This document shows positions 33,109 through 46,697 of a DNA stretch of 46,838 nucleotides, piece by piece. The position numbers and the translations under genes were made by a program. The DNA lies in contig JAFSBZ010000041.1 in the NCBI GenBank assembly GCA_017437005.1, forward strand, positions 1 through 46,838, given 5' to 3'. The notes beneath the pieces are model-generated. The model searched no databases. It worked only from the letters and a program-made list of their open reading frames with translations, and had not been told where the DNA came from. The DNA is from Clostridia bacterium (GTDB taxonomy: Bacteria; Bacillota; Clostridia; Oscillospirales; Acutalibacteraceae). Positions within the stretch are counted from its first letter, which is position 1. Every line of letters begins with the position of its first letter.

Positions 33109-33138
33109 ATAGACAATTAGTAAAGTGAGGTATTGTCT

Positions 33139-35667
33139 ATGCCATACACATATACAAAAAATATTGAAAAATCTCCGCGTATACAGCGTCTTATCGATCA
33201 CCTTTATGCAAAGATGCCAGAGATAGAGGCTGATCGCGCCGTGCTTATAACCGAGAGTTATAAAGCCACCGAAGGCCAACCCATAGTTTTGCGCAGGGCA
33301 AAGGCGTTTGCACACATACTTGAAAATTTGCCTATAACAATTCGTCCTGAAGAATTGATTGTAGGTAGTAATTCCAAGGCTCCTCGCGGATGTCAGGTTT
33401 TCCCTGAATATTCTTACGAGTGGTTAGAGGCCGAGTTTGACACAGTTGCTACGCGTAGTGCTGACCCGTTCTATATTTCGGAAGAAACCAAGGCGAGACT
33501 TCGTGAGGTTTATCCTTATTGGAAGGGTAAAACTACAAGCGAGCTTGCAACTGCCTATATGTCTCCTGAAGCGCTTTGCGCAATCGAGCACAACATATTT
33601 ACAGTTGGTAACTATTTTTATAACGGAATCGGTCATTTTACCGTTGATTACGGCAAGGTGCTAAGCATTGGTTATAAAGGTATTATTGCCGAGGCGAATG
33701 ACGCTCTTGCCGCGCTTGACGTTGCTGATGCCGACTACGCTTCACGTAGCGCATTTTTACAGGCGGTAATAATCAGTTGCGATGCGGTTATAAATTACGC
33801 CGATCGTTATGCTACCCTTGCAAAACAAATGGCAGCGAGCGAACTTGATTCCAACCGTCGTGAAGAGCTTTTAAAAATTGCGGCAAACTGTGCTCGCGTG
33901 CCACGATATGGTGCAGAGTCTTTTTATGAGGCTTGTCAATCCTTCTGGTTTATACAGATGCTTTTACAGGTTGAGTCAAGCGGTCACTCGATTTCACCGG
34001 GGCGCTTTGACCAATATATGAATCCTTATTTTGAAAAGGATTTTAATTCGGGCAAAATTACGCGCGAGTTTGCGCAGGAGCTTGTTGACTGTATTTGGGT
34101 AAAGCTTAACGATTTAAACAAAGTTAGAGATGCGGCTTCAGCCGAAGGCTTTGCGGGATACAGCCTGTTCCAAAATCTTATTGCAGGCGGTCAGGACAAG
34201 TACGGCAACGACGCTACAAATGATGTATCATTTATGTGCATTAACGCAACGCTTCATGTAATGTTGCCTATGCCATCGTTCTCGGTTCGCGTATGGAACG
34301 GTAGTCCACACGAATTTTTGTTGCGCGCCGCTGAGGTCACCCGCACGGGCGTAGGCCTACCGGCTTATTACAACGATGAGGTTATTATTCCGTCACTTAT
34401 GAGTCGCGGTGTTACACTTGAAGATGCACGCAATTACAACATAATTGGTTGTGTAGAGCCACAAGCCCCTGCTAAAACTGACGGTTGGCACGATGCAGCA
34501 TTCTTTAATATGTGTCGTCCGCTTGAGCTTGTATTTTCTAACGGTGTTGACAAGGGTGTTCAGGTTGGACTTCGCACAGGCGAGCTACACGAATTTACCA
34601 CATTTGAAAAGTTTTATGATGCCTATAAGGCACAAATGAACTACTTTATAAAATTGCTTGTAAATGCTGACAACGCTATCGATATGGCGCACGCACGACG
34701 TTGCCCGTTACCGTATCAGTCTTGTATGATTGAGGACTGCATCGGTCGCGGCAAAAGCTTACAAGAGGGCGGTGCGATTTACAACTTTACAGGCCCTCAA
34801 GGCTTTGGAATAGCAAATATGACCGATGCGCTATTAGCCGTTAAGACACTTGTGTATGATAAAAAAGTCTTAAAACTTTGCGAACTTAAGGCGGCGCTCG
34901 ATAATAACTTTGGTCTTGATTTAGATACTCAAACCGCCGAAAAACTTACCAAAACGGTTGCCGAAAAGTTGGTTGCTGACGGTAAGATACTTACCGAAGA
35001 AGATATTAAGTCAATTTATCTTGCGGTGTCAAAAAATCCTGCATCAGATGAAGATAAAAAGCGTTACGGCGCGATACTTGAGCAAATTAACGAGTTGCCC
35101 AAATTTGGTAACGATTTAGCTGATGTTGATGCCTTTGCACGTGATGTTGCTTATACATATACAAAACCGCTCGAGCAATATAAAAACCCACGTGGCGGTA
35201 TGTTCCAGGCAGGTCTTTATCCTGTATCGGCAAATGTACCTTTGGGCGCGCAAACAGGCGCTACACCTGACGGAAGACCGGCATATACGCCAATTGCTGA
35301 TGGCGTAGGTCCTGCGGCCGGCAGAGACGTCAAGGGTCCGACAGCATCGGCAAACTCGGTGTCAAGGCTTGACCACTTTATTGCGTCAAACGGAACGCTC
35401 TTTAATATGAAATTCCATCCAAGTGCATTAGCAGGCCCCAGCGGTCTTGAGAGCTTTGTTGCTTTAGTGCGAGGCTTCTTTGACCAGAAGGGTATGCATA
35501 TGCAGTTTAACGTAGTAAGTCGTGAGACTTTACGTGATGCTCAAAAAAATCCTGATAAATACAAATCATTGGTAGTTCGTGTTGCGGGTTACAGCGCGCT
35601 GTTTACCACGCTTTCACGTTCTTTGCAGGATGATATTATTAACCGTACCGAGCAGGGAGGTTTTTAG
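33139..35667 (+). CDS. Glycyl radical diol dehydratase (B12-independent 1,2-propanediol dehydratase type)
   Basis: The protein has 842 residues from ATG 33139; the in-frame TTG two codons upstream is disfavoured by GTGAGG spacing. It is proposed to remove water from 1,2-propanediol to give propionaldehyde by radical chemistry. Catalytic Cys438 and Glu440 are in IIGCVEPQ, and Asp452 in GWHDAAFFN corresponds to Asp447 of glycerol dehydratase. The glycyl radical site is Gly817 in RVAGYSALF, 25 residues from the end. The CVE motif with the GWHDAAFFN segment points to diol/glycerol dehydratases rather than pyruvate formate-lyase (adjacent Cys-Cys). No encapsulation helix is obvious at either end. 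Glycerol or another diol cannot be excluded, but the aldolase in unit 2 supports propanediol. Confidence 0.88.
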   Translation: MPYTYTKNIEKSPRIQRLIDHLYAKMPEIEADRAVLITESYKATEGQPIVLRRAKAFAHILENLPITIRPEELIVGSNSKAPRGCQVFPEYSYEWLEAEFDTVATRSADPFYISEETKARLREVYPYWKGKTTSELATAYMSPEALCAIEHNIFTVGNYFYNGIGHFTVDYGKVLSIGYKGIIAEANDALAALDVADADYASRSAFLQAVIISCDAVINYADRYATLAKQMAASELDSNRREELLKIAANCARVPRYGAESFYEACQSFWFIQMLLQVESSGHSISPGRFDQYMNPYFEKDFNSGKITREFAQELVDCIWVKLNDLNKVRDAASAEGFAGYSLFQNLIAGGQDKYGNDATNDVSFMCINATLHVMLPMPSFSVRVWNGSPHEFLLRAAEVTRTGVGLPAYYNDEVIIPSLMSRGVTLEDARNYNIIGCVEPQAPAKTDGWHDAAFFNMCRPLELVFSNGVDKGVQVGLRTGELHEFTTFEKFYDAYKAQMNYFIKLLVNADNAIDMAHARRCPLPYQSCMIEDCIGRGKSLQEGGAIYNFTGPQGFGIANMTDALLAVKTLVYDKKVLKLCELKAALDNNFGLDLDTQTAEKLTKTVAEKLVADGKILTEEDIKSIYLAVSKNPASDEDKKRYGAILEQINELPKFGNDLADVDAFARDVAYTYTKPLEQYKNPRGGMFQAGLYPVSANVPLGAQTGATPDGRPAYTPIADGVGPAAGRDVKGPTASANSVSRLDHFIASNGTLFNMKFHPSALAGPSGLESFVALVRGFFDQKGMHMQFNVVSRETLRDAQKNPDKYKSLVVRVAGYSALFTTLSRSLQDDIINRTEQGGF

Positions 35668-35669
35668 TA

Positions 35670-36455
35670 TTGAGTGATTTGTCTGTAAGGGGCAGAATTT
35701 TTGATATTCAACGCTTTTCAACCCATGACGGACCGGGTATTCGAACTATAGTCTTTTTAAAAGGTTGCGCACTTCGTTGCCGATGGTGTTGCAATCCCGA
35801 ATCGCAATCTTATGAGATTGAAACAATGCTTCAAAACGGAAAACCAAAGATTATGGGACGTGACGTTACGGTTGGAGAGGTTTTAGCCGAAGTTTTGCAG
35901 GATAGACCGTATTACAATCGCTCTGGCGGCGGAGTGACGCTTTCGGGTGGCGAAAGCCTTTTACAGCCCGACTTTGCGGTAGCTTTGCTTAAAGCTTGTA
36001 AAGAAAACGGTATAAATACCGCTATTGAAACTACGGGCTTTGCAAATGCACAGGTAATAGAAAAATTCTTGCCATATCTTGATACTGTGCTTATGGATAT
36101 AAAGCACATAAACAGCGCAAAGCATAAGGAATTTACTTCGCAGTCAAACGAAAAAATTCTTGAAAATGCAAAATTAATCGCGCAAAAAGGAAACAAGCTT
36201 ATAGTTCGTGTTCCGGTAATACCTACATTCAATGATACAATTGCCGAAATTGCTGAGATTGCGGCATTTGCGGCATCCCTGCCTAATGTAAATGAAATAC
36301 ATTTGCTGCCGTATCACAGTATGGGCCGCGACAAATATACCGGCCTGGGACGTGAATATACAATGGGTGATATAAAATCGCCCACAAATGAATTAATGGA
36401 AGTGCTTAAACAAACCGCAGAACAGTTTGGACTTAAGACTCATATAGGAGGTTAG
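35670..36455 (+). CDS. Glycyl radical enzyme activase (radical SAM), lacking ferredoxin-like insert
   Basis: The protein has 261 residues. It starts at TTG 35670, two bases after the dehydratase stop, with AGGGAGG upstream. It uses S-adenosylmethionine and a 4Fe-4S cluster to create the glycyl radical on the dehydratase. Motifs: DGPGIRTIVFLKGC, the cluster motif C33-x3-C37-x2-C40 (CALRCRWC), SGGGVTLSGGE (SAM binding) and the later HLLPYHSMGRDKY. Between the cluster motif and SGGGVTLSGGE there are only about 50 residues and no cysteine pairs, so the two auxiliary 4Fe-4S clusters of many dehydratase activases are absent, as in pyruvate formate-lyase activase. It pairs with the gene before it. 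Confidence 0.93.
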   Translation: MSDLSVRGRIFDIQRFSTHDGPGIRTIVFLKGCALRCRWCCNPESQSYEIETMLQNGKPKIMGRDVTVGEVLAEVLQDRPYYNRSGGGVTLSGGESLLQPDFAVALLKACKENGINTAIETTGFANAQVIEKFLPYLDTVLMDIKHINSAKHKEFTSQSNEKILENAKLIAQKGNKLIVRVPVIPTFNDTIAEIAEIAAFAASLPNVNEIHLLPYHSMGRDKYTGLGREYTMGDIKSPTNELMEVLKQTAEQFGLKTHIGG

Positions 36456-36458
36456 AAG

Positions 36459-36818
36459 ATGCAATTTGATAACGATAAGGCTCGTATAATACAGGAGCTT
36501 GTCCCCGGTAAGCAGATAACACTTGCTCACATAATTGCAAATCCCGATGACATCCTTTATAAAAAGTTAGGGCTTGACCCAGCCGCCGAGCACAAGGGCG
36601 CTATCGGTATAATTACCGTATCACCAAGCGAAACAGCGATTATAGCAGGTGATATAGCAATCAAGGCTTCGGGCGCAGAGCTGGGATTTGTAGATCGTTT
36701 CAGCGGCACGGTTATTCTTACTGGTACCGTGTCCGAAGTCGAAGCATCGCTTCTTGCGATAACCGATTATGTGAAAAACAAGCTTGGGTTCACGGTTTGC
36801 GAAGTGACAAAAACCTAA
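36459..36818 (+). CDS. Microcompartment shell protein, permuted hexamer type (PduU/EutS-like)
   Basis: The protein has 119 residues, with GGAGG upstream. A BMC fold is visible, but the order is circularly permuted as in PduU/EutS. The extra N-terminal strand segment (KQITLAHIIANP) is followed by AIGIITVSPSETAIIAGDIAIKASGAELGFVDRFSGTVILTG and a final alpha/beta unit. In PduU the N-terminal strands form a small barrel closing the hexamer pore. It lies between the activase and the GTPase, with a one-base overlap to the latter. It is probably a minor facet tile. Confidence 0.88.
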   Translation: MQFDNDKARIIQELVPGKQITLAHIIANPDDILYKKLGLDPAAEHKGAIGIITVSPSETAIIAGDIAIKASGAELGFVDRFSGTVILTGTVSEVEASLLAITDYVKNKLGFTVCEVTKT

Positions 36819-37255
36819 TGAAAAAATTAATACTTATAGGGCGCAGTGGTGTCGGTAAGACAACACTGACCCAAGCGCTTAAAGGTGAAGAAACTCACTA
36901 TCAAAAAACACAGTATATAGATTATGGTGATTTCTTGATAGATACACCCGGCGAGTATGCTGAAAATCACGATCTTGGCGCGGCTTTGTGCCTTTACGCT
37001 TATGAGGCCGATATCGTGGCATTGCTTATTGCTGCCGACGAACAATATTCACTTTTTCCACCCAACATTACTTGCATGGTAAACCGCGAGGTTATAGGTA
37101 TTGTAACCAAGTGTGAAAAAGCAAATCCTGCTCGCGCAGAAAACTGGCTACGGCTTTCGGGGTGTGAAACGGTGTATAAGGTGGATTCCAAAACGGGAAA
37201 AGGCATAAATCAAGTGTTAGAACACCTTAAAAACCACAAAAAACCACAAAAATAA
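36818..37255 (+). CDS. Small P-loop GTPase of the EutP/PduV family
   Basis: The protein has 145 residues from ATG 36818, which overlaps the preceding stop codon by one base. The P-loop GRSGVGKTTL is at residues 7-16, DTPGEY is the Walker B/G3-like segment, and TKCEKAN corresponds to the base-specificity loop (N/TKxD variant). Members of this family are found in propanediol and ethanolamine microcompartment operons and are thought to act in positioning or assembly; their precise role is unsettled. It ends unit 1; unit 2 starts with its own promoter about 30 bp later. Confidence 0.88.
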   Translation: MKKLILIGRSGVGKTTLTQALKGEETHYQKTQYIDYGDFLIDTPGEYAENHDLGAALCLYAYEADIVALLIAADEQYSLFPPNITCMVNREVIGIVTKCEKANPARAENWLRLSGCETVYKVDSKTGKGINQVLEHLKNHKKPQK

Positions 37256-37287
37256 CGACAAAAACCAAAAAAATTACGTTTTTTATG

Positions 37288-37316
37288 TTGACTTTACCGC
37301 TTTTGTGTGGTATTAT
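37288..37316 (+). promoter_or_regulatory. Promoter of microcompartment unit 2
   Basis: TTGACT (37288-37293), 17 bp and TATTAT (37311-37316). The 12-mer CTTTTGTGTGGT is repeated here at 37300-37311 across the spacer and -10. A/C-rich ACCACAAAA repeats lie at about 37230-37252, just upstream. Confidence 0.85.
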
Positions 37317-37360
37317 CATAATGTATCAAAGCAAAATTTCAAAATTAAGGAGAAATTATT

Positions 37361-38155
37361 ATGGTAAACGAGTATGAAATCAAAAAACAAATATGCGACA
37401 TCGGTAAGCGTATTTATGACAAGGGAATGGTTGCTGCAAATGACGGTAACATTTCTGTAAAGCTTAACGATAACGAATTCCTTTGCACACCTACAGGTGT
37501 TAGTAAGGGCTTTATGACCCCTGAATTTATCTGTAAGGTTGACCGCGATGGTAAGGTTATTCAGGCAAACAAGGGCTTTAAGCCTTCTTCGGAAATCAAA
37601 ATGCATATGCGTGTATACAAAGAGCGTCCCGACGTAAATTCAGTTGTACACGCTCATCCTATGTATGCAACAGGCTTTGCTATTGCAGGTATTCCTCTAA
37701 CACAGCCAATCATGCCAGAGGCTGTAATCGCTCTTGGTTGTGTTCCGATTGCTGAATACGGTACACCTTCTACCGAAGAAATTCCTGATGCAGTTTCAAA
37801 GTACTTGCAGTCATTCGACGCAGTTCTTCTTGAAAACCACGGCGCACTTACATTCTCAGATTCACTTCTTGCTGCATATCACAAGATGGAATCAGTAGAA
37901 TTTTATGCAAAGCTTCTTTACATCTCTAAGCAATTGGGCGGCGCTAAAGAGCTTTCTGAGTCACAGGTACAGCGTCTTTATGAAATTCGTCGTCAGTTTG
38001 GTCTTAAGGGTAAACATCCTGCAGACCTTTGCCCAAATGTTAAAGAGGGCAAGCCAAGCTGTCACGGTTGTGGCGGTAGCTGCTCATGTGGCAAAGGCGA
38101 TAGTGATATGGTTGCCGAGATTACAAAGCGCGTTTTAGAACAGCTCGGTAAATAA
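37361..38155 (+). CDS. Class II aldolase (fuculose/rhamnulose-phosphate type) with Cys-rich linker and C-terminal encapsulation peptide
   Basis: The protein has 264 residues. It splits a deoxy-ketohexose 1-phosphate into dihydroxyacetone phosphate and lactaldehyde. Residues 1-210 are a class II aldolase/adducin domain: NDGNISVKL, PSSEIKMHM (catalytic Glu), VVHAHPMYATG (zinc HxH) and ENHGAL (third His). A linker with C-H-G-C-G-G-S-C-S-C at 234-243 follows, then the amphipathic helix DMVAEITKRVLEQL at the end, which matches encapsulation peptides. The enzyme is therefore probably inside or attached to the shell, as in other GRM5 loci. The linker is unusual and might bind metal. L-fuculose or L-rhamnulose phosphate cannot be distinguished. 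Confidence 0.9.
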   Translation: MVNEYEIKKQICDIGKRIYDKGMVAANDGNISVKLNDNEFLCTPTGVSKGFMTPEFICKVDRDGKVIQANKGFKPSSEIKMHMRVYKERPDVNSVVHAHPMYATGFAIAGIPLTQPIMPEAVIALGCVPIAEYGTPSTEEIPDAVSKYLQSFDAVLLENHGALTFSDSLLAAYHKMESVEFYAKLLYISKQLGGAKELSESQVQRLYEIRRQFGLKGKHPADLCPNVKEGKPSCHGCGGSCSCGKGDSDMVAEITKRVLEQLGK

Positions 38156-38157
38156 TT

Positions 38158-38637
38158 ATGAATGATCAGGCTCTGCAATCTATCGTAGAAAAGATAGTAA
38201 AACAGATTAAAGCACCGCAGGAAATTACGCTCGATGTTGCGCTTTCGCTTACCGAAAAGGTTAAGGCAAAGGCAAAAGAAATGGGCGTTAAGGCGGTTGT
38301 GGCTGTGTCAAACAAAGCGGGACATCCTGTTTTGGCAGAGTGTATGGATGATTCGTACATAGCAAGCTATGACATAGCGGTGCAAAAGGCATTTACGGTA
38401 GTATCCCTTAAAATGTCTACAGCTACGCTAAAACCACTGGCAAGCCCAGGCGGTTCGCTTTACGGAATACAGTTTACCAATGGTGGTAAAATCGTAATTT
38501 TCGGCGGTGGTGAACCACTAAAAAATGCACAGGGCGAAATAATAGGTGGTCTTGGTGTTAGCGGCGGCAGCGAGGAACAGGATTCTGCGCTGGCGGCTTA
38601 TGGTAAAGAAATTTTTGAGAAAGGACAGTATCTATAA
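38158..38637 (+). CDS. GlcG/HbpS (PduO C-terminal-like) protein with N-terminal encapsulation helix
   Basis: The protein has 159 residues. The first 18 (QALQSIVEKIVKQIK) form an amphipathic helix like the targeting peptides of the neighbouring enzymes. From about residue 25 on it is a GlcG/HbpS-like (DUF336) domain, the same fold as the C-terminal part of PduO: ALSLTEKVKAKAKEMGVKAVVAVSNKAG, then GIQFTNGG, IVIFGGGEPL and IGGLGVSGGS. Relatives bind heme or cobalamin-like cofactors, and in microcompartment loci the role is unclear. The adenosyltransferase part of PduO is missing, consistent with a B12-independent pathway. Confidence 0.85.
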   Translation: MNDQALQSIVEKIVKQIKAPQEITLDVALSLTEKVKAKAKEMGVKAVVAVSNKAGHPVLAECMDDSYIASYDIAVQKAFTVVSLKMSTATLKPLASPGGSLYGIQFTNGGKIVIFGGGEPLKNAQGEIIGGLGVSGGSEEQDSALAAYGKEIFEKGQYL

Positions 38638-39833
38638 TGGATATAAATTCTTCCAACATAGAGCAGATTGTGCGTCAGGTACTTGATAGTATGAACGGCA
38701 AGCCTGCGGCTCCTGTAGCAAGCGGCGCAATTCCTGCAACAGCAAAGGTTGCAATGCTTACAAGCCTTGAAAAATTTGAAATCAAAGAATATCCAATGCC
38801 CGTAGTTGGCGACGATGATGTCTTGGTTAAGGTAGAAGGCTGTGGTGTTTGCGGTACTGATGCTCACGAATATAAGCGTGACCCATTTGGTCTTATCCCT
38901 GTGGCGCTCGGTCACGAGGGAACAGGCGAAATTGTTAAAATGGGTAAAAATGTAAAAGTAGACTCGGCAGGCAAACCATTAAAGGTTGGCGACAAGGTTG
39001 TTACTTGTATGATATTTAAGGATAATCCTGATATCACAATGTATGACCTTAACAAGCAAAATGTTGGCGGCGCCGATGTTTACGGACTTCTTCCCGATGA
39101 TGATGTTCACCTAAACGGTTGGTTTAGTGACTACATATTAGTTCGTGGTGGCTCCACCATATTTAACGTAAGTGACTTGGATCTCGATTCAAGAATACTT
39201 ATCGAGCCCTGCGCAGTTCTTATTCATGCGGTAGAACGCGCAAAAACAACCGGCATTTTAAGATTTAACAGCCGCGTTGTAGTGCAAGGCTGCGGACCTA
39301 TTGGTCTTATTTGTATAGCAGTACTTCGCACAATGGGTATTGAAAATATCGTTGCTGTTGACGGCGAGGAAAAACGTCTTCAATTTGCAAAGGAAATGGG
39401 CGCAAATGCTACTGTTAACTTTAAAAACCACAACGGTATTGAGGCTTTGGCAGATGGCGTTAAGAATGCATTTGGCGGATACCTCGCAGACTTTGCATTC
39501 CAGTGTACAGGTTCACCTATAGCGCACAGCAATATTTATAAGTTTATACGTAACGGCGGTGGCCTTTGCGAACTTGGCTTCTTTATTAATGGCGGTGACG
39601 CTACGATTAATCCACACTTTGACATTTGCTCAAAAGAAATTACAACCGTTGGTTCTTGGGTATACACTCTTCGCGATTATGCAACAACCTTTGATTTCTT
39701 AAAGCGCGCCAAGGGAATAGGACTTCCTATTGAAAAACTCATTACACACAAATATCCTCTTGAACAAATTGACGAAGCATTTAAGACTAATCTTAAAATG
39801 GAAGGTCTTAAAATCGCTATTGTTAATAAGTAA
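38637..39833 (+). CDS. Zinc-dependent medium-chain alcohol dehydrogenase with N-terminal encapsulation peptide
   Basis: The protein has 398 residues, starting in the preceding stop codon (TAATG). Residues 5-19 (SNIEQIVRQVLDSMN) form an encapsulation helix followed by a Pro/Ala-rich linker. The catalytic zinc site is visible as GVCGTDAHEYK (Cys) and GHEGTGEI (His, Glu). VVQGCGPIGLICIAV is the NAD(P)-binding loop. The four cysteines of the structural zinc loop of many MDR enzymes are not present. It may reduce propionaldehyde to propanol (NAD+ recycling within the shell) or lactaldehyde to propanediol; sequence alone does not decide. Many related loci use iron-type enzymes for this step. Confidence 0.88.
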   Translation: MDINSSNIEQIVRQVLDSMNGKPAAPVASGAIPATAKVAMLTSLEKFEIKEYPMPVVGDDDVLVKVEGCGVCGTDAHEYKRDPFGLIPVALGHEGTGEIVKMGKNVKVDSAGKPLKVGDKVVTCMIFKDNPDITMYDLNKQNVGGADVYGLLPDDDVHLNGWFSDYILVRGGSTIFNVSDLDLDSRILIEPCAVLIHAVERAKTTGILRFNSRVVVQGCGPIGLICIAVLRTMGIENIVAVDGEEKRLQFAKEMGANATVNFKNHNGIEALADGVKNAFGGYLADFAFQCTGSPIAHSNIYKFIRNGGGLCELGFFINGGDATINPHFDICSKEITTVGSWVYTLRDYATTFDFLKRAKGIGLPIEKLITHKYPLEQIDEAFKTNLKMEGLKIAIVNK

Positions 39834-39844
39834 GGAGAACATTT

Positions 39845-40159
39845 ATGGGTAAGGCTACAGGTATTTTAGAGGTGTTTGGTCTTGTAGCGGCTTTTGTGGC
39901 CTGCGATGCAGGTTGCAAAGCGGCAGATGTTACTGTTGAAAACTTTGACAAAAACAAGCCCGGTAATGCCGACGAATTAGAGGTTCCGTTAATTGTAGCA
40001 ATAAAGTTTCGCGGTTCGGTTGATGCGGTTGAAGCTGCTATGGAAGCGGCAAAGCAGGCGGCAGAAAATGTGACAGGCGTAGTTGCAAGTCATATTATTA
40101 CTCGAACCGAAGAAGATACAGAACCTATGTTAAAGCTTAACGCTTTTGATAAAAATTAA
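39845..40159 (+). CDS. Microcompartment hexameric shell protein with extended loop
   Basis: The protein has 104 residues, with AAGGAG upstream. One BMC domain: GILEVFGLVAAFVACDAGCKAADV for the first part, then GVVASHIITR at the end. Where PduA-like proteins have a short GTEKIGSG pore segment, this one has a longer, charged stretch (NFDKNKPGNADELEVP), so the pore should be larger, gated or blocked. Two cysteines lie four apart in the first helix. It is the first in a row of five hexamer-type genes. Confidence 0.87.
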   Translation: MGKATGILEVFGLVAAFVACDAGCKAADVTVENFDKNKPGNADELEVPLIVAIKFRGSVDAVEAAMEAAKQAAENVTGVVASHIITRTEEDTEPMLKLNAFDKN

Positions 40160-40186
40160 TAAAAATCATCTTTGGAGGATAAAGAT

Positions 40187-40459
40187 ATGAAAGAAGCACT
40201 TGGTATGGTAGAAACCCGCGGTCTTACGGCTGCTATTGAAGCGGCTGATGCAATGGTAAAGGCTGCAGAAGTAACACTCATTGGCACCGAAAAAATCGGT
40301 TCAGGTCTTGTATCTGTAATGGTACGCGGCGATGTTGGCGCTGTAAAGGCTGCTGTTGAAGCAGGCTCTGCAAACGCTTCACGTCTTGGCGAGCTTGTAG
40401 CAGTACACGTAATCCCAAGACCTCACGCTGATGTAGAAAAAATACTTCCTAAATTTTAA
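40187..40459 (+). CDS. Microcompartment hexameric shell protein (PduA/PduJ-like)
   Basis: The protein has 90 residues from ATG 40187, with GGAGG at 40174-40178; the TTG at 40172 overlaps that site and is rejected. A standard BMC-H domain: [20 protein letters not shown], the pore loop [14 protein letters not shown] with the KIGSG of PduA, and [16 protein letters not shown]. It is one of three near-alike paralogues in this operon (the others are at 40905-41183 and 41238-41516). Such proteins form the bulk facets and let small polar substrates such as propanediol pass. Confidence 0.95.
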
Positions 40460-40476
40460 TTAAGAGGTAACAACTT

Positions 40477-40776
40477 ATGAAGTCTATAGGACTTATAGAG
40501 GTTTCGGGCGTAACGGCTGCTATTGATTGCCTTGATATTATGTGCAAATCGGCAGACGTAGAGTTCGTAACTTGGGAGCGCAAGCTCGGTGGTAGACTTG
40601 TGACAGTTGTGGTTGAGGGTCAGGTTTCGGCGGTTACCGCTGCGGTTGAAAATGCTATGGCAAATGCTATAAAGCAGCCTGTTTCACACGCTGTTATTGC
40701 AAGTCCTCACGAAGAGGTTCAGCGTCTTTTAGAGTTAAGCGCTTCGCGTATGAAAAAGAAAGAAGGTAGTAAGTAA
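40477..40776 (+). CDS. Microcompartment hexameric shell protein, divergent pore
   Basis: The protein has 99 residues, with AGAGGT upstream. BMC-H domain starting [20 protein letters not shown]. The pore loop reads [13 protein letters not shown] in place of the PduA-type TEKIGSGLV, giving a bulkier, positively charged opening. The C-terminus is extended by Lys/Glu ([12 protein letters not shown]). Its stop codon overlaps the start of the next shell gene. Likely a minor shell tile of different permeability. Confidence 0.9.
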
Positions 40777-41183
40777 TGGCTGCTTCCGGAACAAGCGGTA
40801 AAAAAACTACTGCAAAAAAATCAACAACTGCTAAAGCGTCTGCGGCTAAAAAGCCAATGGAGGCTAAGGCGGATATAGAACCTAAGGTAAAGGAGGTAAA
40901 GAAAATGGCACTTGAAGCATTAGGTATGGTAGAAACCCGTGGTCTTGTAGCTGCAATCGAAGCTGCAGATGCAATGGTAAAGGCTGCAAACGTAGAGCTT
41001 ATCGGCACCGAAAAAATCGGTTCGGGTCTTGTATCTGTAATGGTACGTGGTGACGTAGGCGCTGTTAAGGCTGCTGTAGAGGCAGGTTCTTCTTCAGCCG
41101 GTTCTTTAGGTGAGGTTATTGCAACACACGTAATTCCAAGACCTCACAACGATGTGGAGAAAATTCTTCCCACACTCAAATAA
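40776..41183 (+). CDS. Microcompartment hexameric shell protein with Lys/Ala-rich N-terminal extension
   Basis: The full-length form has 135 residues, starting at ATG 40776 in the stop codon of the preceding gene. Residues 1-43 are low-complexity and basic (about 12 Lys, with [14 protein letters not shown]), unlike any other shell protein here. From Met44 on it is a standard PduA-like BMC-H domain of 92 residues, nearly identical to the next gene (only Asn/Gly and Thr/Ser changes near the end). Met44 is preceded by AGGAGG 8 bp upstream, so a normal-length protein is probably also made from ATG 40905. The extension could be an addition gained by in-frame fusion, pointing outward or into the lumen. 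It has no similarity to encapsulation helices that I can see. Confidence 0.88.
40889..40907 (+). promoter_or_regulatory. Internal ribosome site and start inside a shell gene
   Basis: AAAGGAGGT (40889-40897) and ATG (40905-40907) in the same frame as the gene starting at 40776. The spacing is 8 nt from AGGAGG. The next shell gene has AGGAGG at the same distance from the same ATG GCA CTT start. Confidence 0.8.
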
Positions 41184-41516
41184 TTTTGTATTAAATTTTA
41201 TTTAATAAATTAAAAATCTTATCAGGAGGAAACAAAAATGGCACTTGAAGCATTAGGTATGGTAGAAACCCGTGGTCTTGTAGCTGCAATCGAAGCTGCA
41301 GATGCAATGGTAAAGGCTGCAAACGTAGAGCTTATCGGCACCGAAAAAATCGGTTCAGGTCTTGTATCTGTAATGGTACGTGGCGACGTAGGCGCTGTTA
41401 AGGCTGCTGTAGAAGCCGGTTCTTCATCGGCAGGTTCTTTGGGCGAAGTTATTGCAACACACGTAATCCCAAGACCTCATGGCGATGTTGAAAAAATTCT
41501 TCCCTCATTGAAGTAA
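40905..41516 (+). repeat. Tandem duplication of a shell gene
   Basis: The segments 40905-41183 and 41238-41516 have the same length and differ at few positions. The first 119 bases are identical; nearly all later differences are silent, apart from two amino-acid changes near the end. The ribosome site upstream of each is also similar, so the copied unit probably included it. Confidence 0.9.
41238..41516 (+). CDS. Microcompartment hexameric shell protein (PduA/PduJ-like)
   Basis: The protein has 92 residues, with AGGAGG upstream. A canonical BMC-H domain: [20 protein letters not shown], pore loop [18 protein letters not shown] and a [16 protein letters not shown] end. It is almost the same protein as the short form of the preceding gene, so together they give a double dose of the main facet tile. 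A stable stem-loop lies just after its stop, before the pentamer gene. Confidence 0.95.
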
Positions 41517-41526
41517 TGTTTTCTTT

Positions 41527-41566
41527 ATGGGGGGGAAGTTTCTTCCTCCCCATAGCATCCTTTTTT
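41527..41566 (+). terminator. Intra-operon stem-loop between hexamer and pentamer shell genes
   Basis: A 12-bp stem (41527-41538 and 41542-41553, seven G in the 5' arm, one G-U pair) with a TTT loop is followed 7 nt later by TTTTTT. The distance to the T-run is longer than in a strict intrinsic terminator, so partial termination or a 3'-end stabiliser are both possible. Confidence 0.65.
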
Positions 41567-41595
41567 AAAATCAATCAGAAGGGATTGTAAAATAA

Positions 41596-41868
41596 ATGTT
41601 AGTTGGAAAAGTAGTAGGAACAATAGTTTCTACACGTAAAAACGAAAAATTAGTGGGTTCTAAATTTATGGTTATTGAACCAATTGAAAAGTTGGGTGAC
41701 CCAAATAATAAATTCGTAGCTATAGACAATGTAGGCGCGGGTATTGGTGAAATAGTGCTTGTAGCAACAGGCTCTGCCGCCAGAATTGGTTGTGACCAGC
41801 AAACCGCTCCTGTAGATGCAGCTATTGTTGGTATTGTTGATAACGGAATAGGTTTACCGGAGTTATAA
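41596..41868 (+). CDS. Microcompartment pentameric vertex protein (EutN/CcmL/PduN-like)
   Basis: The protein has 90 residues, with AAGGGA upstream. Family signature: MLVGKVVGTIVSTRK at the start, MVIEPI, FVAIDNVGAGIGEIVLVATGSAAR, and PVDAAIVGIVD at the end. Pentamers of this family close the 12 vertices of the shell. Only one such gene is visible. Few copies are needed compared with hexamers, and the stem-loop just upstream may lower its expression. Confidence 0.96.
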   Translation: MLVGKVVGTIVSTRKNEKLVGSKFMVIEPIEKLGDPNNKFVAIDNVGAGIGEIVLVATGSAARIGCDQQTAPVDAAIVGIVDNGIGLPEL

Positions 41869-41874
41869 ATTAAA

Positions 41875-43200
41875 ATGAAACTTACAGAACTTCAGGGCAT
41901 TTTAAGGGATAACGGTATCGTGGGCGCAGGTGGCGCAGGTTTTCCAACCTATGCTAAACTAAGCGAAAAAGCCGATACAATTATTCTTAACTGCGCCGAG
42001 TGTGAGCCGCTTTTAAAGCTACACCGTCAAGTGTTAGGCACTCACCCGCAGGAAATTTTTGAAGCCCTCGAATTAATCTCGAAAACTGTAAACGCTAAAA
42101 GGGTTTGTGTTGCTCTAAAAAAGTCTTATGAGGAGACCGCCCAGGCAATTGCTCCCTTTATAGAGTTTTTTTCAAATATTGAAATTTGTCGTATTGATGA
42201 TGTATATCCCGCAGGTGATGAGGTTATTCTTACCTACGAGGTAACAGGCAGAATAGTACCGCCCGGCGACATACCGCTATCGGTTGGTGTAATGGTGCTA
42301 AACGTTGAAACGGTTTATAATCTTTACCGTGCGATGAATGGCAGACCCGTAACGCGTAAGTACGTTACAATTGCAGGTGAGGTTGAAAATCCAGTTACCG
42401 TGCGAGTGCCTATAGGCGTTACCGTAGGCGAGATACTTGATCTTGCAGGCAAAATAACCACACCCGATCCCGCCTTTATAATCGGCGGACCGATGATGGG
42501 TATACTTGGTAGCAAGGCTAATATTGTTACCAAAATCACCAATGCTGTACTTGTGTTGCCGAGTGATCATTCACTCATCAGACGACGTCGGTCAAAGACC
42601 TTCATAGATATGAAGCGTGCTATGGCGGCTTGCTGTCAATGTAGTTATTGCACAAGCCTTTGCTCGCGTAACCTTATAGGTCATCCAATAAATCCGTCAG
42701 AGTTTATGCGTGTCGCATCCAATGGCATTACAAACAATGCGGCGCCGTATTTAGATGCGATGTACTGTTCGGGTTGCGGACTTTGTGAGCAGTATTCGTG
42801 TGTGCAAAATCTGTCACCGCGAATGTTACTTGCCGCTTGCAAGACAGAGCTTCGTAAGGCGGGTGTTAAGCCTCAGCCTGTTAAGGATGGGTTAAAGGTA
42901 AACGAAAATCGACCCTTACGTCAGGTGCCGATGTCTCGTCTTACAAGTCGTATAGGTCTAAAAAAATATAACAAACCTGCCCCTATAATCGAGGCGGTTC
43001 CCAAATTTAAAAAAGTAACGGTGCTTCTTAGCCAACACGTAGGTGCACCCAGTGTACCTGTGGTAAAAAAAGGCGATATCGTTACCGAAAAACAGTTAAT
43101 AGCTACAGCAAGCGAGGGACTTAGTGTTGCTTTGCACTCACCGGTAAACGGTAAGGTAACTGCTGTAGGCAAAACAGCAATAATTATTGAAAAACAATAG
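41875..43200 (+). CDS. PduS-like flavin/iron-sulfur electron-transfer protein (RnfC-related)
   Basis: The protein has 441 residues, six bases after the pentamer gene. The N-terminal part has GIVGAGGAGFPTYAKL, a motif of PduS and RnfC (flavin/NAD region). A SLBB-like segment follows (YVTIAGEVENPVTVRVPIG). Two 4Fe-4S motifs are visible: CCQCSYCTSLC and YCSGCGLCEQYSC. The end is a small barrel-like domain (LLSQHVGAPSVPVV, ALHSPVNGKV). PduS reduces cobalamin in B12-dependent systems; here there is no B12 enzyme, so electron transfer to the activase or NAD+ regeneration within the shell is more likely. Confidence 0.9.
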   Translation: MKLTELQGILRDNGIVGAGGAGFPTYAKLSEKADTIILNCAECEPLLKLHRQVLGTHPQEIFEALELISKTVNAKRVCVALKKSYEETAQAIAPFIEFFSNIEICRIDDVYPAGDEVILTYEVTGRIVPPGDIPLSVGVMVLNVETVYNLYRAMNGRPVTRKYVTIAGEVENPVTVRVPIGVTVGEILDLAGKITTPDPAFIIGGPMMGILGSKANIVTKITNAVLVLPSDHSLIRRRRSKTFIDMKRAMAACCQCSYCTSLCSRNLIGHPINPSEFMRVASNGITNNAAPYLDAMYCSGCGLCEQYSCVQNLSPRMLLAACKTELRKAGVKPQPVKDGLKVNENRPLRQVPMSRLTSRIGLKKYNKPAPIIEAVPKFKKVTVLLSQHVGAPSVPVVKKGDIVTEKQLIATASEGLSVALHSPVNGKVTAVGKTAIIIEKQ

Positions 43201-43211
43201 GAGGCCATAAA

Positions 43212-43760
43212 GTGAAAAAAGCACTTGCAATGGTTGAATATAAAACCGTGTCTTCTGGTATGCGCGCGGCTGATATAATGGTAAAAACCGCCGAGGTTGA
43301 AATTATAGAGGCTACTACTGTGTGCCCTGGTAAATATATGGTACTTATTTCGGGCGAGCTTAGTGCAGTTCGCGCATCGGTTGATGCGGCGGCCGCCAAA
43401 ATGCCCGATATGTTAATAGATAAATTTGTGCTTGGTAATCCGCACGAAAGCATATTTACTGCGCTTTACGGCACAACCGATATCGGTAGTCCCAACGCTT
43501 TGGGTGTTCTTGAAACATTTTCATCATGTGCGGCAATAGTGGCCGCAGATATAGCAGCCAAAACTTCGCTTGTAGAGCTTGTTGAGCTTAGATTGTCTCG
43601 CGGTATGTGCGGCAAATCTTATTTACTGCTTACTGGTGAAATAGCGGCTGTTGATGCAGCAATTGAACGCGCAAAACAGGGAGCCGGTGAACAGGGAATG
43701 TTTCTTGATAGCGCGGTTATTCCACATCCTGATGAAAAAATGTGGAACAGTATTATATAA
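43212..43760 (+). CDS. Microcompartment trimeric shell protein, PduT-like with Cys in both pores
   Basis: The protein has 182 residues starting at GTG 43212 behind AGGAGG. Two fused BMC domains: residues 1-90 and about 95-182. In the first, TTVCPGKYMVLISG places Cys38 exactly where PduT has the Cys that holds a 4Fe-4S cluster at the trimer centre. In the second domain, SRGMCGKSYLL has Cys133 at the equivalent loop, which I do not recall in Salmonella PduT (GIGGKCYM there). It follows the PduS-like gene; PduS and PduT are known to interact, suggesting electron passage across the shell. Confidence 0.92.
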   Translation: MKKALAMVEYKTVSSGMRAADIMVKTAEVEIIEATTVCPGKYMVLISGELSAVRASVDAAAAKMPDMLIDKFVLGNPHESIFTALYGTTDIGSPNALGVLETFSSCAAIVAADIAAKTSLVELVELRLSRGMCGKSYLLLTGEIAAVDAAIERAKQGAGEQGMFLDSAVIPHPDEKMWNSII

Positions 43761-43791
43761 CTTAAATTTTCAGAAAGAGAGAACTGTTTAA

Positions 43792-44550
43792 ATGCTCGCA
43801 ATAGAACGACGTAATGCAATTCTTTCCAAGCTTTATTTAGACGGCAAGGTCATTGTTTCGGAACTGAGTACTGAGTTTGAAGTTACCGAAGAAACCATCC
43901 GCCGCGACCTTGAAAAATTAGATAAAGAAGGTCTTGTTAAAAAAAGTTATGGTGGAGCGGTGCTAATTCAAAATTTTAATACCGACCTTCCGCATAGTGT
44001 AAGAAAAAAAGCAAATGTTGAGGCAAAGCAAAAAATTGCCGAAAAAATAAGCGGTATGTTTCACGATGGCGATTGTATTATGATAGATGCAAGCTCAACG
44101 GCGCTTTTGCTACTCAACTATATCAAAAATTTAAAAAACATTACTCTTATTACTAATTCGGTAGAAGCGCTTATAGAGCTTTCCGATAAGGATGATTGGA
44201 ATGTGTTTTCAACCGGCGGTAAGTTAAAACGCGGCTCGCTGTCGTTGGTGGGTCCTTCAGCCGAAAAAACAATACGTGCCTTTCACGTAGACTACGCAGT
44301 ATGTTCTTCAAAGGGAATTGATATTTCACGCGGAATAACCGATTCAAACGAAAAAGATTCCGAAATGAAGCAGGCAATATTTGATTCGGCAGAAACCAAG
44401 ATTTTGGTTGTCGACTCAAGTAAATTTGATAAAATTTCGCTTATAAAGGTTAGCGATGTAACCGATGTTGATATCATCGCAACCGATACCGAGCCAAGCG
44501 CCAATTGGCAAGAATATTTAAAGACTAAAAACGTTGAATTAATATATTAA
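43792..44550 (+). CDS. DeoR/GlpR-family transcriptional repressor
   Basis: The protein has 252 residues. N-terminal winged helix with the family signature: RRNAILSKLYLDGKVIVSELSTEF, then TEETIRRDLEKLDKEGLVKKSYGGAV. The C-terminal DeoRC domain has ITLITNSVEAL, FSTGGKLKRGSLSLVGPSAE and KILVVDSSKFDK, a phosphosugar-binding fold. It is encoded within the microcompartment operon, so it probably regulates it in response to a sugar phosphate such as fuculose or rhamnulose phosphate. The shared 12-mer CTTTTGTGTGGT at both promoters is a candidate binding element. Confidence 0.92.
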   Translation: MLAIERRNAILSKLYLDGKVIVSELSTEFEVTEETIRRDLEKLDKEGLVKKSYGGAVLIQNFNTDLPHSVRKKANVEAKQKIAEKISGMFHDGDCIMIDASSTALLLLNYIKNLKNITLITNSVEALIELSDKDDWNVFSTGGKLKRGSLSLVGPSAEKTIRAFHVDYAVCSSKGIDISRGITDSNEKDSEMKQAIFDSAETKILVVDSSKFDKISLIKVSDVTDVDIIATDTEPSANWQEYLKTKNVELIY

Positions 44551-44576
44551 AAAAGTATCTCAAGGAGTGATTATAT

Positions 44577-46022
44577 ATGGCAAGAAATCTTACCGAAGCC
44601 GAAATTCGTGAGGTTGTAAGTCAAGTGTTAAATCAGGTTGCGGCGGTGCCTACAGCAAGTTTTGACAGCACACAATATGCAGGCAAAAAGTTTGTAGGTG
44701 TGTTCGACGATATGAACGATGCTATTGCCGCAGCACAGGTAGCTTATAAGGCGGTGCGCGCAATGTCGGTAGAAAAACGCGAACAGCTTATTACCGAAAT
44801 TCGCCGCCTCACACGTGCCGAAGCGCACATTATGGCAGAAATCGGCGTTAAAGAAACAGGTATGGGCAGGGTAGACCACAAAACTGCAAAGCATATGCTT
44901 GTTGCAGACAAAACCCCAGGCACCGAAGATATTGTTTCAGCCGCAAAAACAGGTGACTATGGCCTTACACTTGTAGAAATGGCTCCGTTTGGTGTAGTTG
45001 GCGCAATCACTCCAAGCACCAACCCAAGCGAAACAGTAATTTGTAACTCAATTGGTATGATAGCCGCAGGCAACGGTGTTGTATTTAATCCACATCCTAA
45101 TGCTATTGCTACATCCAACTACGCAGTTGACCTTGTTAACCGTGCAAGTAAAGCAATGGGTGGACCCGAAATTTTGGTTTGCTCTATGAAAAAGCCAACC
45201 CTTGAATCAGCCGCTATTATGCAGTCACACCCACTTATCAGACTTCTTGTTTGCACAGGTGGTCCGGGTGTTGTAAAAGCAGTTCTTTCTTCGGGTAAAA
45301 AGGCTATTGGTGCCGGTGCAGGTAATCCACCTGTTATAGTTGACGATACCGCCGATATCCAGAAGGCAGGTAAAGATATAATTGACGGTTGCACATTTGA
45401 TAACAACCTTCCTTGTATTGCCGAAAAAGAGGTATTTGCTTTCAGAAATATTGCTGACGAGCTTATCTCGGTTATGCTTAAAAATGGCGCTTATATGATA
45501 GACTCAGCACAAGCTGCTAAGCTTGCTGAAATAGTTTTGGTGGACAAAACCGACAAAAAAGGTAACGTTCGCAAAATAGTTAACCGCGACTGTGTTGGCC
45601 GTGATGCAAAGGTAATTCTTTCTAAGCTTGGTATTACCGTTAGTGATGATATTCGTTGTATCATTTGCGAAACCGACTTTAACCATCCCTTCGTTCAAGA
45701 AGAGCTTATGATGCCAATACTTCCAATAGTTCGCGTTAACGATATTGATGAGGCTATTGATTTGGCAGTTAAGGCCGAGCACGGCAATCGCCACACAGCA
45801 CATATGCATTCTAAAAATGTTGACAACCTTTCTCGTTTTGCACGCGAGGTTGAAACCACAATCTTTGTTAAAAATGCTCCTTCTTACGCAGGCATCGGCT
45901 TTGGCGGCGAGGGTCACGCAACCTTTACAATTGCAGGACCAACAGGTGAGGGTATTACCTCGGCTCGCAGCTTTACACGTCAACGTCGTTGCGTAATGGC
46001 AGAAAGCTTTAGAATTATTTAA
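44577..46022 (+). CDS. CoA-acylating aldehyde dehydrogenase (PduP/EutE-like) with encapsulation peptide
   Basis: The protein has 481 residues, with AAGGAG upstream. It converts propionaldehyde plus CoA and NAD+ to propionyl-CoA and NADH inside the shell. An N-terminal helix (NLTEAEIREVVSQVLNQV, residues 4-21) is the encapsulation peptide, followed by a short linker. Catalytic Cys280 is in NNLPCIAEKEV; the cofactor region APFGVVGAITPSTNP is typical of EutE/PduP. It lies directly before pduL, which takes propionyl-CoA to propionyl phosphate and frees CoA within the shell. Confidence 0.95.
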   Translation: MARNLTEAEIREVVSQVLNQVAAVPTASFDSTQYAGKKFVGVFDDMNDAIAAAQVAYKAVRAMSVEKREQLITEIRRLTRAEAHIMAEIGVKETGMGRVDHKTAKHMLVADKTPGTEDIVSAAKTGDYGLTLVEMAPFGVVGAITPSTNPSETVICNSIGMIAAGNGVVFNPHPNAIATSNYAVDLVNRASKAMGGPEILVCSMKKPTLESAAIMQSHPLIRLLVCTGGPGVVKAVLSSGKKAIGAGAGNPPVIVDDTADIQKAGKDIIDGCTFDNNLPCIAEKEVFAFRNIADELISVMLKNGAYMIDSAQAAKLAEIVLVDKTDKKGNVRKIVNRDCVGRDAKVILSKLGITVSDDIRCIICETDFNHPFVQEELMMPILPIVRVNDIDEAIDLAVKAEHGNRHTAHMHSKNVDNLSRFAREVETTIFVKNAPSYAGIGFGGEGHATFTIAGPTGEGITSARSFTRQRRCVMAESFRII

Positions 46023-46043
46023 TTTGAAAAGAGGCTAATAAAA

Positions 46044-46697
46044 ATGGCTTATGATGATAAAATAGTTGCCGAAATAGTGTCTCGCGTTATGGCAGGTCTT
46101 GGTGACAGTACGGCAAGCGTTAATACCGATACCGTGCCCGTTGGTGTATCTAACCGACATATTCACTTGTCGACCACCGATCTTGAAACACTTTTTGGTA
46201 AGGGATATGAGCTTACCCCCATAAAAGATTTGTCACAACCTGGTCAGTTTGCTTGTAAAGAAACCTTAACAATAGTGGGTCCGTCACTTCGCCCTATTGA
46301 AAACGTGCGAGTATTAGGCCCTGTGCGTAAGGCTTCTCAGGTAGAAATTTCACGTACCGATTCTTTTACTCTCAAGGTAAAACCACCCGTTCGTGAATCG
46401 GGCGATATTGCAGGCTCGGCTCCTGTTACAATTATAGGACCTAAAGGTGTTGTAACACTTAAAGAGGGTTGCATAATTGCTAACCGTCATATACATATGA
46501 GCACTGACGAGGGCGCACAGTTTGGCCTTTCAGACGGTCAGTATGTTGACGTAGAGGTTGAGGGTGCTCGCCGCACCAAGTTTTATGATGTTCAGGTGCG
46601 TGTACACAAGGATTTCCGCCTTGAAATGCATATCGACACCGATGATGCCAACGCCGCAGGCATAGGCAACGGCGCAAAGGTTAAAATAGTAAAATAA
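46044..46697 (+). CDS. pduL: Phosphate propanoyltransferase with encapsulation peptide
   Basis: The protein has 217 residues. An N-terminal helix (DKIVAEIVSRVMAGL, residues 5-19) targets it to the shell. Two metal-binding repeats typical of PduL follow: VGVSNRHIHLSTTDLETLFG and IIANRHIHMSTDEGAQFGLS, each with HxH ligands for zinc. It exchanges CoA for phosphate on propionyl-CoA, recycling CoA within the compartment and enabling ATP formation by a kinase outside. No kinase is visible in this window. A GC-rich hairpin follows and ends the operon. Confidence 0.96.
   Translation: MAYDDKIVAEIVSRVMAGLGDSTASVNTDTVPVGVSNRHIHLSTTDLETLFGKGYELTPIKDLSQPGQFACKETLTIVGPSLRPIENVRVLGPVRKASQVEISRTDSFTLKVKPPVRESGDIAGSAPVTIIGPKGVVTLKEGCIIANRHIHMSTDEGAQFGLSDGQYVDVEVEGARRTKFYDVQVRVHKDFRLEMHIDTDDANAAGIGNGAKVKIVK

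Follow-up and report, generated by a model that had tools for sequence, protein, structure and literature searches.

A conserved internal start in a microcompartment BMC-H gene points to two shell proteins, one of them with a lysine-rich tail

PduB belongs to a class of shell proteins with two BMC domains, whereas the tailed BMC-H protein analyzed here has one, and CcmM of the beta-carboxysome is an inner scaffold protein rather than a BMC-domain tile. With PduB/PduB' and CcmM, organelle genes with two translation starts are already known. In Salmonella, pduB is a shell gene with two translation sites, and both forms of the protein have been seen; the long start of pduB overlaps the stop codon of pduA, and a second in-frame start follows 111 bp downstream, compared to 129 bp in the tailed BMC-H gene (PMC3836489). 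The start anatomy of the latter is PduB-like, with two in-frame starts, the first of which overlaps the stop codon of the upstream shell gene. PduB forms trimers (PMC3836489), its 37 extra residues link the shell and the core (PMC9132943), and its N-terminus has been described as a signal sequence in which hydrophobic residues alternate with hydrophilic ones (PMC12108088), whereas the BMC-H tail is hydrophilic, rich in Lys, Ala and Thr, and predicted to be disordered. No match to TIGR04501, the PduB model, was detected in the tailed protein at an E-value of 0.001; with this model absent among the matches and only one domain present, orthology of the tailed BMC-H to PduB was rejected.

The other described systems resemble the present case only in part. 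CcmM occurs in two versions that differ at the N-terminus and in their roles (PMC11005335). PduK is likewise a BMC-H protein with an extra segment, reported to be relevant to the position of the Pdu organelle in the cell (PMC9132943), but its extension is C-terminal and contains a cysteine-rich domain (PMC12058022), whereas that of the tailed BMC-H is N-terminal; furthermore, the two possible starts of pduK, 21 bp apart, are given as alternatives and not as the sources of two products (PMC3836489). The 2021 catalogue of shell proteins notes extensions of BMC-H in general, most often C-terminal ones (PMC8217296). For Cphy_1182 of Clostridium phytofermentans, only residues 73-161 have been reported to align with PduA (Petit and others, PMC3557285). 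Cphy_1182 is probably the same protein as the tailed BMC-H of one of the loci in our sample (L097, labelled Lachnoclostridium phytofermentans), and an alignment that begins at residue 73 is expected because the L097 tail consists of 71 residues; in the available portion of PMC3557285, no mention of the extra N-terminus or of an internal start was found.

The preliminary description of the present gene knew of no described dual-start shell protein, which is wrong in general given PduB/PduB' (PMC3836489, PMC9132943) but may hold for BMC-H, the two possible starts of pduK notwithstanding: no description of a dual-start BMC-H protein with a Lys-rich tail was found in the literature searched, the scope of which excluded most subscription papers and all supplements. 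If the cytosolic-coat reading outlined below is correct, the present gene would be the first known case of a dual-start BMC-H whose tail is demonstrated.

The gene is located in a 46,838-nucleotide stretch of Clostridia bacterium DNA, the whole of which is hereinafter called the window, within an operon (33133-46697) whose Pfam content corresponds to a GRM5-type microcompartment locus. By Pfam, the operon encodes the glycyl radical enzyme of this locus type (33133..35667, plus strand; PFL-like with Gly_radical), a Radical_SAM protein, a class II aldolase (37361..38155, plus strand; Aldolase_II) and a zinc alcohol dehydrogenase (ADH_N with ADH_zinc_N), along with a PduV/EutP-type GTPase, an HbpS-like protein, an EutN/CcmL pentamer protein, a DeoR regulator, an aldehyde dehydrogenase, a phosphate propanoyltransferase and an RnfC/Complex1_51K-type protein that we take to be PduS. 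A tandem BMC protein of the PduT type is present as well (TIGR02526, 118 bits, below the cut-off of 250). With the RnfC-type protein counted as the PduS homolog, the composition of the locus is that of GRM5. The GRM5 set comprises a glycyl radical enzyme, a radical-SAM activase, a class II aldolase, an alcohol dehydrogenase and PduS/PduT homologs, and GRM5 loci process fuculose or rhamnulose phosphate (PMC6325248). The genes for aldehyde dehydrogenase and phosphate propanoyltransferase are found at the end of the operon in the window (44577-46697); in many of the loci L048-L115, these two genes adjoin the alcohol dehydrogenase gene, 3' of the shell genes. There is no PduB-type gene in the operon (shell genes, 39845-43760), and no PduB protein over the family cut-off was found in the bacterium's own genome, which is about 85% complete; the best match, a PduT-like gene, scores 19.7 of 310 bits.

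The shell genes are all on the plus strand. A BMC-domain shell gene denoted h1 (39845..40159) and the operon's first plain BMC-H gene (40187..40459), both recognized by domain search, are followed by a divergent BMC-H gene denoted h2 (40477..40776, by domain search and gene order), the tailed BMC-H gene (40776..41183) and another plain BMC-H gene (41238..41516) with its own AGGAGG at 41224-41229. The ATG at 40776 overlaps the stop codon of h2 by one base (TAATG, 40774..40778) and is preceded by a weak Shine-Dalgarno (SD) sequence (-5.4 kcal/mol); the C-terminus of h2 itself is a short basic stretch (40740-40773) immediately ahead of the tail start. The long form, delineated from the open reading frame, the domain search and the relatives, is a shell protein of 135 amino acids in which 43 Lys/Ala/Thr-rich residues with a net charge of +8 (40776..40904) precede Met44 and a single PF00936 domain (residues 48-123, positions 40917..41144, 103 bits). 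The BMC-H edge motifs KAAN and PRPH are present in the translation, the canonical motifs being KAAN and (P/A)RPH (PMC8217296), and a BMC-H tandem fusion and PduA are among the relatives of known structure. Within the tail-coding part, the eight-base SD sequence AAGGAGGT (40890..40897, conserved in relatives) encompasses AGGAGG at 40891-40896, with 8 nt between G 40896 and the in-frame ATG at 40905, from which a plain 92-residue BMC-H would be translated (40905..41183). Homology to the downstream shell gene begins precisely at this ATG: 259 of the 279 nt match and the two proteins differ in 2 residues, whereas 5' of the ATG there is scant similarity apart from the SD sequence. The extension, the internal AGGAGG with its spacing and the onset of homology are all as the preliminary description had them. 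The first 119 nt after both ATGs (40905-41023 and 41238-41356) are identical, in contrast to the remainder, a pattern suggestive of recent gene conversion.

To place this gene among its relatives, we compiled 102 loci, namely the window, one locus per genome with a match in a protein search across the genus (70 genomes, of which 22 matched, including that of the window) and the best 80 of 560 confirmed matches from a collection of bacterial genomes; L001-L007 and L029-L035, additional matches in genomes already counted, were left out. An upstream in-frame start codon was present in 67 rows, 12 of which (the first copy in L066, L073, L074, L083, L087, L089, L095, L096, L105, L106, L107 and L109) were excluded by eye as read-through of non-coding sequence, with L083 arguable and L095 containing masked bases at the site; for L046, the first ATG was taken as the long start. 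A tailed BMC-H is accordingly encoded in at least 55 of the 102 loci, which is a lower bound because contig ends interrupt tail-like matches in G014, G025 and G048 and because those in G024 and G064 fall outside the scanned loci. After the removal of the duplicates L036 and L037, 53 distinct tails remained. The tailed gene lies directly 3' of h2 in 50 of the 55 loci, the commonest shell-gene orders, with the tailed gene denoted H*, being h1-H-h2-H* (24 loci) and h1-H-h2-H*-H (22 loci); the order h1-H-h2-H without a tail was found in 25 loci.

In a survey across the phylum, a basal BMC-H was present in 98 of 398 genomes, and 2 of the 29 loci examined (30 were retrieved, one of them the window itself) had real tails, so that the tail was rejected as a general BMC-H trait; both tailed genes belong to another family and show the same shell-gene order, the ATG and the SD sequence. 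Tails extend beyond GRM5-type loci: in L059 (Clostridium methylpentosum), L067 and L146, the tailed gene is adjacent to genes for a B12-dependent diol dehydratase and its reactivase, and no match to the glycyl radical enzyme or the aldolase of the window was detected in the stretch examined. In these loci (L059:61-5011, L067:233-4937, L146:566-3436), the shell-gene order is the same, tail included, and the B12-dependent diol dehydratase replaces the glycyl radical enzyme.

An in-frame ATG is found at the domain start in 52 of the 53 distinct tailed genes, and the SD sequences at these 52 ATGs all have energies of -8.0 kcal/mol or lower (median -10.9), with a spacing of 6 to 8 nt in 50. An SD of -9 or stronger is present at 46 of the 52 junctions (-8.0 to -8.4 kcal/mol in the remaining six) compared to 64 of 2812 in-frame internal ATGs in 514 neighbor genes (Fisher p = 3e-63; this p-value and the combined one below are too small because the rows are related, which overstates their independence), and among the 11 other in-frame ATGs within tails, the best SD is no stronger than -7.6. 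At the junction, most tails have a K-E-E-K or K-E-V-K type sequence, for which the SD itself is the coding DNA. Each of the 43 Lys-Glu pairs within the last six tail codons is spelled AAG-GAG, a spelling used in 1 of 20 such pairs elsewhere in the same tails and in 90 of 680 in the genes of the loci; junctions without Lys-Glu often spell the SD by other codons (AGG-GAG for Arg-Glu, ACG-GAG for Thr-Glu, CCG-GAG for Pro-Glu). Under synonymous recoding with the codon usage of each locus, the null mean is -5.6 compared to the observed -10.9 (p < 0.05 in 15 of 52 rows; combined p = 2e-13); for the window alone, the result is marginal and not significant (p = 0.06). The internal SD is stronger than that of the long start in 43 of the 52 genes, and RNA folding around the internal start is predicted to be weak (median -4.9 over 60 nt, compared to -12.1 at 3435 neighbor positions). 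In the largest group of relatives, dS in the six junction codons is 0.65, that is, not lower than the 0.48 of the tail body.

The single tailed gene that lacks the internal ATG, in L081, also lacks the SD, and its Lys-Glu is spelled AAA-GAA; two plain copies come after this gene (9899-10267). L097 and L092 have no basal BMC-H other than the tailed one in the stretch examined, and therefore any plain form there would have to arise from the internal start. In 51 of the 53 tailed loci, one or more separate plain BMC-H genes are also present, so the short form would often be redundant. At the matching place of the operon, plain genes begin at the position of the internal start of the tailed genes. 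Taken together, the conservation of the ATG, the spacing and the codon choice indicates that selection maintains the internal start.

In a tree of the alcohol dehydrogenases from 68 loci (39 tailed, 29 untailed), limited to loci in which the following shell gene and an alcohol dehydrogenase of sufficient length were present and built by a quick method that left many forks weakly supported, the tail is found on both deep branches and requires 13 changes, at least 6 of which are forced by well-supported branches. We interpret the pattern as an ancient tail that was lost several times, gains being the alternative. The idea that the internal SD is a decaying remnant of plain-gene duplication, suggested by the nearly identical downstream copy, was rejected because the uniform AAG-GAG spelling and the presence of tails on both deep branches point to upkeep. 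In 13 of the 21 loci with both genes, the tailed domain is closer to the plain copy that follows it than to any of the other tailed genes compared, indicating that adjacent copies often stay similar to each other, which mixed assembly would favor.

The tails themselves appear to evolve as protein-coding sequence. Four groups of closely related genes, the last two of which are single pairs, gave dN/dS ratios for the tail of 0.48, 0.34, 0.19 and 0.20, with corresponding values for the domain of 0.01, 0.11, 0.00 and 0.01, which indicates that the tail is under coding selection and that the long form is kept as well; the possibility that the tail is open but non-coding DNA was rejected on the strength of these ratios and the composition. 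The 53 distinct tails are 26 to 114 residues long, mostly start with MAE- or MAT-type sequences, and consist of 20% Lys, 17% Ala, 14% Thr and 12% Glu, with Leu, Phe, Tyr, Trp and Cys nearly absent. Their long starts have a median SD of -8.2 kcal/mol, and the distance to the upstream gene's stop codon ranges from -13 to 54 nt. The designation of the tail as basic stands for 50 of the 53 whole tails, which have a positive net charge (median +5, range -3 to +11), and fails for three that are neutral or acidic; without the first Met and the last six residues, the median charge is +4, with more of the basic character in the N-terminal half. In a single AlphaFold2 monomer job with 26 sequences, pLDDT was about 42-56 over the first 40 residues, with no helix before residue 39, and about 82-84 in the domain core, so the tail is probably disordered. 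A signal pattern of the PduB type, with its alternation of residues, was not found in the tail by either residue counts or these pLDDT values: in 45 of the 53 tail bodies, including that of the window, no 15-residue stretch contains as many as five of LIVFMWY, and the other eight have five or six (six in L097 and L054). A Pfam search with five of the 53 tails yielded no family over the cut-off; the best match, HC2 in one of the five (E = 0.075, 13.6 bits compared to a cut-off of 40), mirrors the composition, and on this five-tail sample homology to a known family, including histone-H1-like ones, was rejected.

Two simpler explanations would each dispense with one of the products. If only the long form were made, the SD-like stretch would reflect a conserved K-E-[EV]-K peptide or a ribosome pause that precedes the folding of the BMC domain. 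The motif is indeed conserved at the protein level too, and SD-like stretches do arise by chance at internal ATGs, at the background frequency of 64 in 2812 given above; however, peptide constraint leaves the spelling of 43 out of 43 pairs unexplained, a pause requires no well-spaced ATG, yet nearly all tailed genes retain one, and the junctions that lack Lys-Glu still encode an SD, which makes this explanation quite improbable. Conversely, if only the short form were made, the tail would be untranslated upstream DNA that is open by chance, as was apparent in the 12 of 67 rows that were excluded because they resembled such read-through; the weak SD of the long start in the window and the untailed genes that begin at the internal-start position fit this explanation. 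It is nevertheless hard to reconcile with tail dN/dS ratios of 0.19 to 0.48, MAE-/MAT-type starts, the skewed composition and the median SD of the long starts, and we consider it very unlikely.

We therefore favor the production of two shell proteins from one gene by tandem translation initiation, a model that, as a whole, we consider highly probable on the basis of the comparative evidence. Ribosomes that finish h2 would restart at the ATG at 40776, with its overlapping stop codon and weak SD, and yield the tailed form, and other ribosomes would bind the strong AAGGAGGT within the tail-coding part and start at the ATG at 40905, yielding the plain form. Both forms are probably made, given that both start signals are conserved and the tail is under coding selection; the short form would be the more abundant one. 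Because the BMC domain is the same in both, the two forms probably mix in hexamers and facets, in which case it is plausible that a mixed hexamer carries a few tails, the dose being set by the internal start. The dual start proposed in the preliminary description is thus strongly supported by the ATG, the SD spacing, the codon choice and the selection on the tail, and the outcome that this description would have taken as refutation, absence of the extension or of the internal ribosome site from relatives, did not come about: both recur (at least 55 of 102 loci, with a strong SD at 46 of 52 junctions), although 29 of 68 matching genes have no tail. If the model is correct, a main hexamer tile of an organelle common in gut and soil would be a mixture whose makeup is set by translation, rather than one protein, and gene callers that choose a single start would miss one of the two proteins.

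The function of the tail is the weakest step of the model. Nucleoid-binding tails are known on other granules, and the BMC-H tail may resemble them. The N-terminus of PduA is on the concave face, which is cytosolic in recombinant shells, with the native orientation being doubted (PMC6109187); in GRM2 shells, the convex faces point toward the lumen (PMC6971018). A disordered tail would accordingly exit from the concave, cytosol-facing side and could act outside the organelle, and by analogy with these shells, an outward tail is the likelier reading. That it serves as an external, flexible and mostly cationic tether or spacer, for example, positioning organelles or keeping them apart, is a tentative proposal to which we give somewhat less than an even chance. 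The dual start could also be real with the tail acting inside, as a PduB-like link between shell and core in a locus without PduB. This reading draws on the role of PduB residues 1-37, which join shell and core in Salmonella (PMC9132943), on the lack of a PduB over the cut-off in the window's own genome (incomplete as it is) and on the dispute over native-shell orientation (PMC6109187). We regard it as unlikely given that signal sequences have alternating hydrophobic residues (PMC12108088), in contrast to most tail bodies, which are poor in LIVFMWY, and that the PduA N-terminus is concave (PMC6109187) while the convex face is lumenal in GRM2 shells (PMC6971018). Still with a dual start, cationic tails might instead form a pore collar that aids the entry of anionic sugar phosphate and the exit of dihydroxyacetone phosphate, in keeping with the fuculose or rhamnulose phosphate processed by GRM5 loci (PMC6325248) and with the positive charge of 50 of the 53 tails. 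Many aldolase-type loci are untailed, however, some tails are neutral, and in L059, L067 and L146, the tail accompanies a B12-dependent diol dehydratase with no aldolase match in the stretch examined; a pore collar is thus very improbable, and a tie between the tail and sugar-phosphate chemistry was set aside in view of these three loci.

Returning to the external tether, its fullest version is a dose-controlled cytosolic coat on a family of gut and soil microcompartments, in which the main hexamer consists of tailed and plain subunits, a fast-changing Lys/Ala/Thr tether whose composition is kept, and not its sequence, places or spaces the organelle, perhaps on the nucleoid, and in some loci the C-terminus of a neighboring shell protein has taken over the tail, so that a tail on the outer face would be conserved; this is a speculative combination that we consider rather doubtful as a whole. 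Two forms from one gene would bear on how shells connect to the cell and how shell decoration is dosed, and a natural, probably outward tail with built-in dose control would provide a handle for shell engineering.

The suggested movement of the tail to a neighboring gene pertains to h2. Both the N- and C-termini of BMC-H proteins are on the concave side (PMC5534457, PMC6109187), so a C-terminal tail of h2 would be on the same face as the BMC-H tail. Among the 69 loci with a recognizable h2 end, an end of at least 40 residues, a cut picked post hoc, is found in 7 of 31 loci without a tailed BMC-H and in 0 of 38 with one (Fisher p = 0.002), although two of these seven long ends, in L091 and L086, are not Lys-rich and a rank test across all lengths is not significant (p = 0.18). 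Substitution of an h2 C-terminal tail for the BMC-H tail is thus a lead suggested by sequence comparison; if true, the conserved thing would be a tail on the shell rather than one gene. In L041 (57-486, plus strand), the h2 C-terminus consists of 41 residues, almost 90% of which are Lys, Ala, Thr, Pro or Glu, and ends just before a plain BMC-H gene. Shorter or more mixed h2 tails are present in the near twins L105 and L106 and in L052, with L074 being less clear.
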